Shown here: positions 13,789 to 62,539 of the stretch, one piece after another
Numbering within the stretch: position 1 is the stretch's first letter
Layout: each line of letters begins with the position of its first letter
Source: Caulobacteraceae bacterium
Lineage (GTDB): Bacteria; Pseudomonadota; Alphaproteobacteria; Caulobacterales; Caulobacteraceae
DNA length: 64,000 nt
NCBI GenBank assembly: GCA_947452365.1
Contig: CANGCO010000004.1
Location: 1-64,000, forward strand
Direction of reading: 5' to 3'
Notes under the pieces: model-generated
What the model saw: only the letters and a program-made list of their open reading frames with translations
Database searches by the model: none
Told to the model about the DNA's origin: nothing
Made by a program: the position numbers and the translations under genes

Positions 13789-14298
13789 TTTGGTAATCCC
13801 CTTAGAGGTCCATTTAGAGAGCCAAGTTTGACGCCATAGCGGTCACAGATCGTGATCCGCCACTCTGACGACCACAGCTGCACCCAAGGCCTCTGTAGGG
13901 TAGTATTGGATTTTTTACCTGTCAATGCGGATTTGAAAACAAGTTTCAGTAATTACATGTATTGTTTTATAGCGTTTACAGTTTTGTAATAATGATTAAT
14001 ATTTTAATAGCGATAACGCTTTAAATGTTAGGATTTGGTTTATATAGAAAGGAGATCATAACTATAGTCGTTAATCGCAAAATTCAAAACTAATTCAATG
14101 TAATAACGATATATATAATTATACCTATGCGAGAAGATTTTTTTGCTGCAGGTTATAAGCTATGAAAATCAAGCCCAAGCGCGGCATGACGCTTGACCCG
14201 CGCAAGTCGGATCGCGGACTTAGGGGGCCAGATCGCTTAACAAAAAAACTTTTTGGTGGCCGAGTGATAGGGTCGTTGCGGCGGCCTTTTGGCCTTGA
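13789..14298. other. A/T-rich gene-free region between the secreted-protein gene and the SleB-like gene
   Basis: This 510-base stretch is visibly richer in A/T than its neighbours, especially 13930-14160. It precedes the secreted-protein gene on the minus strand. On the plus strand there is a possible 58-codon basic ORF at 14162-14338 (MKIKPKRGMTLDPRKSDRG start) with AGG 10 nt before it. It overlaps the end of the SleB-like gene and has no recognisable relative, so I do not call it a gene. The region most likely carries promoter and upstream elements. Confidence 0.5.
13896..13925 (-). promoter_or_regulatory. Possible promoter of the secreted-protein gene
   Basis: On the minus strand TTGACA occurs at 13925-13920, about 130 nt before the start codon. 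The hexamer 17 nt downstream (TACCCT) is only a weak -10. If real, it implies a 5-prime leader of about 100 nt. This is tentative. Confidence 0.25.
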
Positions 14299-25261: not shown

Positions 25262-25337
25262 TGGTGCCGCTTAGGTGACTCGAACACCTGACCCCCGCAT
25301 TACGAATGCGATGCTCTACCAGCTGAGCTAAAGCGGC
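25262..25337 (-). tRNA. tRNA-Thr (anticodon CGU), CCA encoded
   Basis: Read on the minus strand, the acceptor stem GCCGCTT pairs with AAGCGGC, followed by discriminator A and an encoded CCA (25262-25264). The D arm has AGCTGGTA, the anticodon loop is TTCGTAA giving anticodon CGU, and the T loop is TTCGAGT. All four stems form. It reads ACG threonine codons. Confidence 0.97.
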
Positions 25338-56779: not shown

Positions 56780-57286
56780 ATGACTGACACAGTGGCCGAC
56801 GGCCAAATCAATCCAGCACCCGCCACCGATATTGCGAGCGGCCCCGGCCTGCGGATCTTGACCCAATTTATTCGCGACCTGTCGTTTGAAAACCCAAAGG
56901 CGCCAGAATCCATGCGTTCGGGCGGCGCCCAACCACAGATCGATCTGGGTGTCGAATTGAACGCGCGCAGCCGAGATGATGGGCTTTATGAAGTCGATCT
57001 TAAGCTGTCCGCGGGTGCAAACAGGGACGGCGAGTCGGTCTTTCATGTCGAACTGGTCTATGGCGGCCTGTTCCAAATTGAAGGCGTTCCCGAAAGCGAG
57101 ATGGAGCCCGTGCTCTTGATCGAGTGCCCGCGCTTTTTGTTCCCGTTTGCCCGGCGCATTATTGCCGATCTAAGCATGGAGGGGGGGTTCCCACCCTTTA
57201 TGCTAGATCCGATCGATTTTGCCGTCATTTATATGGCGCGCAAGGCCCAGGCTGAAGCCGAATCGTCTGGCTCGATATCGGTCTAG
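56780..57286 (+). CDS. secB: Protein-export chaperone SecB
   Basis: SecB holds precursors unfolded for the SecA/Sec pathway. The 168-residue protein has a polar N-terminal tail, then [30 protein letters not shown] and [32 protein letters not shown], all conserved in SecB. A long antisense frame (56693-57076) is not a gene. The stop shares CTAG with dnaQ. The upstream 272-base divergent gap (56508-56779) should hold promoters for both secB and tim44. Confidence 0.96.
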
Positions 57287-58647: not shown

Positions 58648-59522
58648 GATTTTGCCTTTTCTTCCGCCGCAAGGGCCGCAAGCGCCAAGGCCCGGACATC
58701 AATCGCTTGCGGCGGCGCATGACCAAACAGGGCTTCAAACGAGGGTATGGCCTGGCCTACCAACATATCAAGACCATCAATGGTCAAGTGTCCCCGCGCC
58801 CGGGCCGCCTGCAAAAACTGAGTATCAAGCGGCTTATAGACCATGTCCATAAAGGCGCAGGTGCTTGGCACGGCCTGCCAGTCAAGACCTGGGCCCTCAC
58901 CGCCATTAAGGCCAAGCGAGGTGGCATTAATCACCGCCACGGCCCCATCAAAAACGGCGCCGATCTGATCTTGACCATAGGCCAAAACCTTGTCGCCAAG
59001 GGCGTCGGCTATGGCAAGGGCTCGGTCAAAAGTGCGGTTTAGGATCCGGACCTGGGGCACACCGGCCAAGACGAGCGCTGCGGCCGCGCCCCGCGCCGCG
59101 CCGCCCGCGCCCAAAATCACCACCGGTCCGCTTTTCAGATCAAGGCTAGGGGCTTGGCGGGCAAAGGCATATAACAGGCCCTCGCCGTCTGTATTATCTA
59201 GCTCAAGACTACCATCAGTGCGAAACACCACCAGATTAGCAGCCCCGGCTAGGCTCGCTCGCGGATGAACAAAATCACGGCCAGCCTGGGCCAGGCCCAA
59301 GGCCTGCTCTTTAAACGGCAGCGTAATATTGAGGCCGCAAATCGCGCCACCGCGGCAGCCCTCAATCAGGGCCCTAAACCCGTCAAGACTAGGGCCAAAG
59401 GCAATATAGACCCCATCAAGACCCGCCGCCTGCAGCCAGGCATTATGCAATAGCGGGCTTAGGGAGTGACGCACCGGATGGCCAACCACGCCCGCCACTC
59501 GGGTTTTGGCTGAAATTGTCAT
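58644..59522 (-). CDS. aroE: Shikimate 5-dehydrogenase
   Basis: AroE reduces 3-dehydroshikimate with NADPH in aromatic amino acid synthesis. The 292-residue protein has [23 protein letters not shown], the catalytic Lys in NITLPFKEQ, the NADP-binding [14 protein letters not shown] and NATSLGLNG. It overlaps maf and coaE by four bases each. Confidence 0.95.
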
Positions 59523-60118
59523 GTCATCACCACCCCAAACTGCCGAAGCGCGCCAAGTAGGCCCGTAAGCGGTAGGCCCAGAATGGTGAAATAATCGCCA
59601 TCGATCTGGTCAAACAACTGCACGCCCGCCGATTCTAACTTATAGCCGCCGACACAGCCCAGCACGTCTTGGCCATGATCGGCCAGATAGGTCTGCAAGA
59701 ACTTGTCGGAAAAATCGCGCATGGTTAGATGGGCGCTAACCACCTCCTGCCACACGATCTGCCCGTCGCGCGCCAAGGCAATCGCCGAATGCAGGCTGTG
59801 GCGTCGGCCGCGCAATTGCGCGAGCTGATTACCAAGGTCTGCGATCGAGTTCGGCTTGTTAAATAGGGTTCCACCAAGATCCAAGGTCTGGTCGGCACCA
59901 ATCACCAGGCCCGGCTCGGTTTGCGAAACGTGTTCGGCCTTGGCCCCGGCCAAGCTAGCGGCAATGGCGATTGGCGAGGCCTGACCGGTCAGAAGCTGGG
60001 TTTTTAACGCCTCCTCATCCACCGCACTGACCTTGACCGAAAAGCGCAGGCCCGCCCCCAAGAGTAGGGCGCGCCGTGCGCTAGAGCCGGAGGCTAGGAC
60101 AAGGTAGGGTGCGCTCAT
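59519..60118 (-). CDS. maf: Maf-like nucleotide pyrophosphatase
   Basis: The 199-residue protein is of the Maf/Ham1 fold, which hydrolyses non-canonical or modified nucleoside triphosphates. It starts LVLASGSSARRALLLGAGL and has GADQTLDLGG with the metal-binding acidic residues and FLQTYLADHGQDVLGCVGGYKLE. It lies in the ppsR-maf-aroE-coaE run with four-base overlaps on both sides. Confidence 0.94.
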   Translation of the reverse strand: MSAPYLVLASGSSARRALLLGAGLRFSVKVSAVDEEALKTQLLTGQASPIAIAASLAGAKAEHVSQTEPGLVIGADQTLDLGGTLFNKPNSIADLGNQLAQLRGRRHSLHSAIALARDGQIVWQEVVSAHLTMRDFSDKFLQTYLADHGQDVLGCVGGYKLESAGVQLFDQIDGDYFTILGLPLTGLLGALRQFGVVMT

Positions 60119-60963
60119 GCCGTGGGTTCAATTTGGCCGCGCGCAGCCGATAATATATTGATCACGGCGGCGGCCGTTTCTTCAACCGAGCGGCGGGTAA
60201 CATCGATTACTGGCCAGCCTTGTTTTTCAAACAATCGGCGCGCCCGGACCGTCTCATCCCGAACCGCCTCGGTTTCGATATAGGCGCTTTCGCGGCCCTC
60301 GTTTAAACTCAAAAGGCGGTTGCGGCGGATCTGGATCAAACGGTCTGGCGACACGGTCAGGCCCACCACAAGGGCATGCTTTAGATCAAACAATTGCGCC
60401 GGCGGCTCTGCACCCGGAACCAGCGGCACATTGGCGGCTCTTACCCCACGATGGGCCAGATAAATGCAGGTCGGGGTTTTTGAGGTGCGGCTTACGCCCA
60501 CCAGGACCACATCGGCGCTTTCCAGATTTTGTGTGCCCTGGCCGTCATCATGGCCAATCGCATAGTTCAGCGCCTCGATCCGGTTGAAATAGTCGTGGTC
60601 TAGGGCATGCTGGGCACCGACCCGGTTGGAGATTGAGGCCCCCAGATAGCGCGACAGGGCTGAAACCAGCGGATCGAGCGCGGCAATACAGCCAATATCC
60701 AACTGGCGGCAGCCGTGTTCGAGCGATTCGCGCAGGCTTTTATCGACAATCGTGTGGATCACTATGCCCGGCGCGCCCTCAACCTCCTGCATGACCCGCT
60801 CAAGTTGGCGCTGGGACCGCACAAGGGCATAGACATGCTCGATCGGCAGAACTTGATCAAACCGTGCGCAAACCGCCTTGGCCATAGCATTCAGCGTCTC
60901 GCCGGTTGAGTCCGAGACCAGATGAACATGGAAATAGGTGGCGATGCGCGGTTGTTGGCTCAT
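60115..60963 (-). CDS. ppsR: Pyruvate phosphate dikinase regulatory protein (DUF299, RP001 type)
   Basis: This family phosphorylates and dephosphorylates PEP synthase or pyruvate phosphate dikinase. The 282-residue protein has FHVHLVSDSTGETLNAMAK, the P-loop-like VGVSRTSKTPTCIYLAHRG and IYAVTR... ; the YIETEAVRDE segment is also conserved. In Caulobacter the DUF299 gene flanks the replication origin opposite hemE, exactly as here. It starts next to the putative origin and runs away from it. Confidence 0.94.
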   Translation of the reverse strand: MSQQPRIATYFHVHLVSDSTGETLNAMAKAVCARFDQVLPIEHVYALVRSQRQLERVMQEVEGAPGIVIHTIVDKSLRESLEHGCRQLDIGCIAALDPLVSALSRYLGASISNRVGAQHALDHDYFNRIEALNYAIGHDDGQGTQNLESADVVLVGVSRTSKTPTCIYLAHRGVRAANVPLVPGAEPPAQLFDLKHALVVGLTVSPDRLIQIRRNRLLSLNEGRESAYIETEAVRDETVRARRLFEKQGWPVIDVTRRSVEETAAAVINILSAARGQIEPTA

Positions 60964-61013
60964 AGGTCTGTTTTGCCCTTTGAGACGAGGCTTCGCAAGG
61001 CGGCTGATTTTTG

Positions 61014-61022
61014 TGTGGATAT
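61014..61022 (-). promoter_or_regulatory. DnaA box (8 of 9)
   Basis: The minus strand reads ATATCCACA, one mismatch to TTATCCACA. It is the box closest to ppsR. Confidence 0.6.
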
Positions 61023-61135
61023 TGGGTGGGTACGAGGTGTGCCCGTGGGCAAATTTACGGCCTTGGGCGGGTATGGATTTAGCGATTTTTAGATTTGGTT
61101 AACCCTATGGGGACAAGCCTTAAGTTTGTCGTAAA

Positions 61136-61180
61136 ATCTTCACATCTTAGTCGGTTGGGGATGTTTGCATTTGTGAAGAT
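61136..61180. repeat. Inverted repeat in the origin region
   Basis: ATCTTCACA at 61136-61144 is repeated in reverse complement at 61172-61180, with 27 bases between. The arms are half similar to a DnaA box (TTCACA end). A binding site pair is possible. Confidence 0.5.
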
Positions 61181-61266
61181 CTGATCAGTATCAGGGCTGA
61201 CACAATTTTACAGGTCTTTGCTAATTTAAGCGCGCCAATAAGGGTTTTGATTTTGGCGGTTACGAT

Positions 61267-61275
61267 TTGTCCACG
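61267..61275 (+). promoter_or_regulatory. DnaA-box-like site (7 of 9)
   Basis: The plus strand reads TTGTCCACG, two mismatches to TTATCCACA. It lies 13 nt from the next, oppositely oriented box. Confidence 0.4.
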
Positions 61276-61287
61276 GTTTCAACAGGT

Positions 61288-61296
61288 TGTGGATTA
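61288..61296 (-). promoter_or_regulatory. DnaA box (8 of 9)
   Basis: The minus strand reads TAATCCACA, one mismatch to TTATCCACA. It is paired with the weaker site at 61267-61275. Confidence 0.6.
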
Positions 61297-61330
61297 GAAC
61301 AATCCGTTGCACGAAGAAGCCTGAACCTCT

Positions 61331-61339
61331 TGGGGATAA
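61331..61339 (-). promoter_or_regulatory. DnaA box (8 of 9)
   Basis: The minus strand reads TTATCCCCA, one mismatch to TTATCCACA. A 7-of-9 site in the same orientation lies at 61442-61450, on the other side of the A/T-rich stretch. Confidence 0.55.
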
Positions 61340-61401
61340 GATGGGAATGAACCCAATCGCCCTGTTCCATGCCCAGATTGCCCAGCCCAAACCACCGCCT
61401 C

Positions 61402-61435
61402 AAAAAATTTCTTTTCTTATTAAAATTTAACTTAA
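61402..61435. other. A/T-rich stretch, candidate DNA unwinding element
   Basis: Only three of 34 bases are G or C, in a region otherwise of mixed composition, and DnaA-like sites lie on both sides. Three TTAA motifs occur at its right end (61420, 61427, 61432). Such stretches are where the origin first melts. The role is inferred. Confidence 0.55.
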
Positions 61436-61492
61436 TGGCCAGATGGATAAAGCGGCCTTGAGTTTCGCCGCCGAACTGGGTTTAACCAATCC

Positions 61493-62539
61493 ATGAGCGC
61501 TTCAGATCAAACCCACGAAAACGGCCCTGCCCTATTGCGTGTGCTAGCGGGTCAAAGCTTAGCCAGGCCGCCAATCTGGTTCATGCGCCAAGCTGGTCGC
61601 TATCTGCCGGAATATCGCGCGCTGCGAGCCACAGCTCCGGACTTTATCTCTTTCTGCCTCAATCCAGAAATGGCAGCCGAGGCCACCTTGCAACCCATGC
61701 GGCGGTTTGAATTTAGCGCCGCCATTGTCTTTGCCGATATCCTGCTCTTACCCAAGGCGCTTGGCCAAGATGTGCGGTTTGAGGTCGGCGAAGGCCCCAA
61801 ACTCGGGGCCCTACCCTCGCTTGAGCGGATGCGAGACCGGATTGAGGGCGCTGCCGGTGCACTTGGCAATATTGGTGAGACCTTGGGCCGGGTGCGCGAA
61901 AAGCTAGACCCCTCAAAAGTCTTGATCGGGTTTGCCGGGGCACCTTGGACCGTAGCCACCTATATGATTGAAGGCGGATCCAGCGACCGGGTTGCCGTGC
62001 GGACCTATGCCTATACTCACGCCAAGGCGCTGGATGAATTGATCGATATTCTGGTCGATGCGACGGCACATTATTTGGTCATGCAGGCTAGGAGCGGGGC
62101 CCAGGTGCTCAAATTGTTTGAATCCTGGGCTGAAGGTCTGCCCGAAGATCTTTTCGAGCGCCTGGTGATCGGCCCGCATGCCCGAATTATTGCCCAGGTC
62201 AGGGCCGCTGGCGTCACTGCCCCCTTTATTGGCTTTCCAAGAGGGGCTGGGGCCTTGGTGCAAAGCTATGCCCAGAAGGTCGCGGTTCAGGCCGTAGCGC
62301 TTGACGTACAAGCCAGTGCCGCCATGGGCCAGGCCTTGCAAAAAACCGTTGCCATTCAAGGTGCGCTCGATCCCCTATTATTGCGGGCGGGCGGCAAGGC
62401 CTTGGATGTTCGGCTAGATCAATTGCTCGCCCAATGGGGACAAGGTCCCTATATCTTTAATCTTGGCCACGGAATCTTGCCGGACACGCCGATTGCGCAT
62501 GTCGAACAGGTCTTGGCGCGGGTGGTGCACGGGCAATGA
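61493..62539 (+). CDS. hemE: Uroporphyrinogen decarboxylase
   Basis: HemE converts uroporphyrinogen III to coproporphyrinogen III. The 348-residue protein has PPIWFMRQAGRYLPEYR and GFAGAPWTVATYMIEGG, the two family signatures. It begins the hemE-hemH-hemJ run leading away from the putative origin; its promoter lies in the origin region, as in Caulobacter, where it is linked to origin control. It overlaps hemH by four bases (ATGA). Confidence 0.97.
   Translation: MSASDQTHENGPALLRVLAGQSLARPPIWFMRQAGRYLPEYRALRATAPDFISFCLNPEMAAEATLQPMRRFEFSAAIVFADILLLPKALGQDVRFEVGEGPKLGALPSLERMRDRIEGAAGALGNIGETLGRVREKLDPSKVLIGFAGAPWTVATYMIEGGSSDRVAVRTYAYTHAKALDELIDILVDATAHYLVMQARSGAQVLKLFESWAEGLPEDLFERLVIGPHARIIAQVRAAGVTAPFIGFPRGAGALVQSYAQKVAVQAVALDVQASAAMGQALQKTVAIQGALDPLLLRAGGKALDVRLDQLLAQWGQGPYIFNLGHGILPDTPIAHVEQVLARVVHGQ

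Follow-up and report, generated by a model that had tools for sequence, protein, structure and literature searches.

In Caulobacter crescentus, the chromosomal origin Cori adjoins hemE (PMC4468827; PMC4285127) and has parS within 8 kb (PMC4468827), and the hemE cluster is an accepted origin marker in alphaproteobacteria (PMC4741004). Cori carries five CtrA sites and is repressed by CtrA in swarmer cells, and C. crescentus origins in which all five of these sites are missing show only a mild perturbation in constant culture, yet are sensitive to antibiotic pulses (PMC4468827). In Hyphomonas neptunium, the origin has been mapped to the vicinity of hemE by marker-frequency sequencing, and two parS sites are located upstream of parAB, about 7 kb from hemE (PMC6650430). 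The DNA analyzed here (the window; 64,000 nucleotides) belongs to an 86,521-base contig (G000:C4) of a metagenome-assembled genome (MAG) of the family Caulobacteraceae (G000; 2.59 Mb in 133 unordered contigs). It contains a 529-base intergenic gap between the divergent genes ppsR and hemE. We consider it very likely that this gap serves as the chromosomal replication origin in this Caulobacteraceae species, at a position orthologous to that of C. crescentus Cori, and we infer its activity from the features described below. Such an origin is ordinary in kind and lies where origins of this type are known.

A reading of the sequence alone had recognized the gene order of the Caulobacter origin (maf, a DUF299 gene, a gap and hemE), and both the order and the coordinates proved exact (Table 1). 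To the left of maf lie aroE, coaE and dnaQ, each on the minus strand, while hemE is followed on the plus strand by hemH and then by a hemJ-like open reading frame; past the window, the contig continues with rho, mnmE, mnmG, rsmG, parA, parB, holA and leuS. The cluster at the locus thus reads maf-ppsR|hemE-hemH-hemJ-rho-mnmE-mnmG-rsmG-parA-parB, with some of the neighbors named from their protein sequences. The further claim that genes point away from the gap on both sides holds on the right; on the left it holds for only about 3.7 kb, secB being transcribed rightward. The encoded PpsR is 98% identical to that of a Caulobacteraceae MAG, and at least 80 of the family loci that were fetched (some of them duplicates) retain a gap between ppsR and hemE, 420-625 bases long. 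The gap has a G+C content of 46%, compared to about 59% for the window. Elsewhere in the window, the G+C fraction increases between 25000 and 26000, from about 0.55 to 0.63; the change lies near a tRNA-Thr gene (25262-25337) and is possibly the boundary of a segment that was inserted or is evolving differently.

Table 1. Positions of the predicted origin, its flanking genes and its sequence elements, numbered from the first base of the window.
Feature	Position	Strand	Remark
Putative chromosomal origin (Cori-type)	60964-61492		Intergenic, ppsR/hemE
secB	56780-57286	+	Left side, rightward
maf	59519-60118	-	Left of ppsR
ppsR (PEP synthase/PPDK regulator, DUF299)	60115-60963	-	Left flank; NCBIfam NF003742
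hemE	61493-62539	+	Right flank; TIGR01464
Predicted DnaA box ATATCCACA (1 mismatch)	61014-61022	-	Part of a 22-base run shared unchanged with the sister species
W-box TCCCCA	61108-61113	-	Inside the 40-base run identical to the sister species
W-box TCCCCA	61156-61161	-	Conserved in the sister species
Predicted DnaA box TAATCCACA (1 mismatch)	61288-61296	-	Sister species: TTATCCCCA, same offset
Predicted DnaA box TTATCCCCA (1 mismatch; W-box core TCCCCA)	61331-61339	-	Sister species: TTGTCCCCA
Near-CtrA box TTTAGATTTGGTTAA (1 mismatch to TTAA-N7-TTAA)	61088-61102		Identical in the sister species
Near-CtrA box TTAAGTTTGTCGTAA (1 mismatch)	61120-61134		Degraded in the sister species
Near-CtrA box TAAAATTTAACTTAA (1 mismatch)	61421-61435		Within the AT-rich element; degraded in the sister species
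Longest block identical to the sister species	61083-61122		40 bases; holds a near-CtrA box and a W-box
AT-rich element, candidate duplex-unwinding element	61402-61435		3 G/C in 34 bases, hemE side

The three predicted DnaA boxes that had been described as one mismatch from the consensus TTATCCACA are indeed present, all on the minus strand. Three such boxes compare to a mean of 0.12 in first-order Markov copies of the gap, none of 2,000 of which reached this number. Searching for TCCMCA, which combines the normal DnaA core TCCACA with the Caulobacter W-box TCCCCA (PMC4285127), yielded five cores in the gap (two TCCACA and three TCCCCA) versus 0.79 expected, a count reached in 3 of 2,000 Markov copies (0.15%); elsewhere in the window, no 529-base stretch contains more than two. 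All five cores share one orientation. As in Cori, then, the predicted DnaA sites are weak, comprising W-boxes and boxes that are one base off TTATCCACA. Cori additionally has two G-boxes TGATCCACA, whereas the gap contains no exact copy and a single site within one mismatch (TAATCCACA). Exact G-boxes are also absent from most of the family gaps and are not required for the wider hemE-origin class. Many family members carry a TTnTCCCC box on the plus strand just before an AT-rich block; the box is missing from this place in the window species (61364-61375) and its congeners, and 22 of 83 family gaps lack it in their last 200 bases.

The AT-rich block in question corresponds to the 34-base stretch with three G/C that had been noted from the sequence, and is the lowest-GC 34-mer of the whole 64 kb. 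By eye, it also shows possible DnaA-trio repeats, on which we base no claim. Among 20 aligned family members, most have an AT-rich block followed by CTTGAG before hemE. The window holds a second strongly AT-rich patch (13944-14120; down to 10 G/C in 60 bases), the sole rival in the window to the element in the gap.

Partitioning sequences also lie close to the gap. The parS pattern TGTTYCACGTGRAACA has two matches in the whole genome. Both fall on the contig that carries the gap (positions 69670 and 69717), 8.2 kb away from it and with mnmE and mnmG on either side. This distance is similar to that at Cori, which has parS within about 8 kb, has the same hemE flank and belongs to the same family, and a parS pair together with a hemE-proximal origin is likewise found in H. 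neptunium. That origin was mapped by experiment, whereas the one described here is predicted, the likeness resting on position and parS.

GC skew was examined in this genome and in two closed relatives. Within the genome itself, which is a MAG in unordered contigs, skew could be followed along the 86.5-kb contig, where it is weak and has its cumulative minimum at 2676 rather than at the gap. On the left side, leading and lagging genes have nearly the same coding-strand GC3 skew (-0.035 vs -0.048); a clearly higher value in leading genes is seen on the right side only. Because the minimum is off the gap and the GC3 difference is clear on one side only, skew alone would not have found the origin here, and the same was true in H. 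neptunium (PMC6650430). In one closed relative (G024; a 5.55-Mb contig), skew calculated from twenty 20-kb samples is zero or less (mostly negative) below the equivalent gap and mainly positive above it, and it switches a second time at a distance of about half a chromosome. A near-zero value in the +252-kb sample shifts the best-fit switch to 0.3-0.5 Mb above the gap, a distance of one or two sampling steps. The sampled skew of the other closed relative (G016; 2.67 Mb) was too weak to give a usable signal, and no switch was visible in it.

In many bacteria, origins are marked by dnaA lying beside dnaN, recF and gyrB. These genes form one leftward cluster on another contig of this genome, separate from that of the predicted origin (G000:C9; L005 1062-7546); in C. 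crescentus, they are not known to be contiguous. This arrangement could be expected if the ppsR|hemE gap were only a divergent promoter region for its two flanking genes, regulated by DnaA, CtrA or both, with the origin elsewhere, for example at dnaA, and DnaA and CtrA do both regulate promoters in Caulobacter. Against this, the 8.6 kb spanning dnaA-dnaN-recF-gyrB contain a single near DnaA box, and neither the space between dnaA and dnaN nor the 1.0 kb preceding dnaA has a cluster of DnaA motifs, the search on this side being bounded by the end of the contig about 1 kb beyond the gene. Within these bounds, an origin at dnaA was rejected. Moreover, parS is found by hemE and not by dnaA, and the H. 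neptunium origin was mapped near hemE (PMC6650430). We regard a role limited to promoting transcription as improbable.

Taken together, the synteny, the sole parS pair of the genome, a DnaA-site cluster conserved in the sister species (see below), the AT-rich element, the lack of a rival cluster at dnaA and the change in skew sign near the equivalent gap of the closed relative all support the original proposal of an origin between ppsR and hemE. At such an origin, DnaA-ATP would bind the array of five weak, same-orientation sites, oligomerize towards hemE and melt the AT-rich element, where the replisome would be loaded; ParB bound to the parS pair would then segregate the new origin (ParABS).

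Alignment with other hemE-ppsR gaps, a check proposed alongside the sequence-only reading, showed that conservation extends to the predicted elements. In the sister species (G004; L007/L036), the gap is likewise 529 bases long, aligns without a single indel and is 80.3% identical, compared to 68-75% at third codon positions of the neighboring genes; this excess is significant (z = 3.1 against 74.5% and 4.7 against 71%), third positions being no more than an approximate measure of neutral change. Each of the five DnaA cores is kept at the same offset, and the one that differs (TGTGGA to TGGGGA) is DnaA-type in both species. The 40-base identical run is longer than expected at the identity of the gap (1.5% of simulations), and the AT-rich element is retained. 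Four congeners (G001, G002, G005 and G006) have a gap in the same place and of similar length (560-571 bases where complete), sharing the AT-rich block and the CTTGAG motif before hemE. These gaps are otherwise about 45% identical to that of the window, and their middle portions could not be aligned. So low an identity between species of one genus, together with the missing perfect CtrA boxes and GANTC sites described below and the weak contig skew, might suggest a former origin, or the end of a rearranged region, in a lineage where initiation has moved. However, the five cores, the AT-rich element and the 40-base block kept in the sister species point to present constraint on the gap, and parS is still at its usual distance; we judge a shift of initiation in this lineage to be very unlikely, and the least likely of the readings considered.

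In some relatives, the surroundings of the equivalent position differ. In the closed relative G016 (L019, L122), hemH adjoins the ppsR gap, and hemE is represented solely by a divergent copy (51% identical) located far from there, at 1.69 Mb; hemE is no longer at the origin in this genome. Many genomes of genus g21 in which FlhA was not found (L123-L130, L132) similarly have only a divergent hemE (44-50% identical) without an adjoining ppsR, and no ppsR match was obtained in G026. The origin neighborhood seems to be rearranged in these genomes, whose genus, at a guess from gene absence, may be Acaudatibacter.

The predicted origin differs from Cori in its CtrA sites. Whereas Cori has five, no perfect CtrA box (TTAA-N7-TTAA) is present in the gap of the window species or its sister. 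Three boxes with one mismatch do occur in the window species (0.47 expected), of which the one at 61088 is alone in being intact in the sister. The CcrM site GANTC, found in Caulobacter, is likewise absent from both gaps, while GANTC occurs once or twice, and a perfect CtrA box twice, in each of the four congeners. Cori also has an IHF site; the standard IHF consensus WATCAANNNNTTR, used as the query in place of Cori's own site, has no match in the gap and one site with a single mismatch, which is not conserved. The trans-acting factors are nonetheless encoded in the genome, which keeps ctrA (91% identical to the Caulobacter CtrA query), ccrM (78%), gcrA and chpT, the identities to the C. crescentus CtrA and CcrM queries being approximate.

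A survey of 84 family ppsR|hemE gaps (with some species represented twice) found a perfect CtrA box in 55 and none in 29, at least one near-CtrA box in nearly all, and GANTC in 77. The window species is thus not unique in having no perfect box, a possibility that we rejected on these counts (duplicates included); instead, they place it at the weak end of a continuum of CtrA boxes, and not alone there. Given that near-CtrA sites persist and that perfect boxes are missing from other members of the family too, we read the difference in CtrA and GANTC sites as turnover or weakening of the CtrA input rather than as a demonstrated loss. It is a mild surprise that, judged by their sequences, the CtrA docking sites look weakened relative to close relatives. 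A stronger version, in which CtrA (and CcrM) persist as proteins but have lost most of their control over the origin in the lineage of the window species and its sister, leaving a switch operated by DnaA only, seems doubtful to us. Were there such a DnaA-only initiation switch, which we think unlikely, it would sit in a genus whose other members still have CtrA boxes at their origins.

Loss of the dimorphic life cycle has been reported for Acaudatibacter and Phenylobacterium immobile (PMC12700997), and was considered as a cause of CtrA-box loss. This explanation was rejected: the window genome keeps ctrA as well as the flagellar export gene flhA. In addition, two genomes with no detectable FlhA, G009 (L114) and G321 (L110; P. 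immobile, at the same level of guesswork as above), each have a ppsR-hemE gap with two perfect CtrA boxes, indicating that losing flagella is not enough in itself to rid the origin of CtrA boxes.

These findings locate the predicted origin in an uncultured lineage of freshwater Caulobacteraceae and offer a natural comparison in which a sister species and congeners keep DnaA sites while CtrA and CcrM sites turn over. Species with naturally weakened CtrA sites would show when such control is dispensable.
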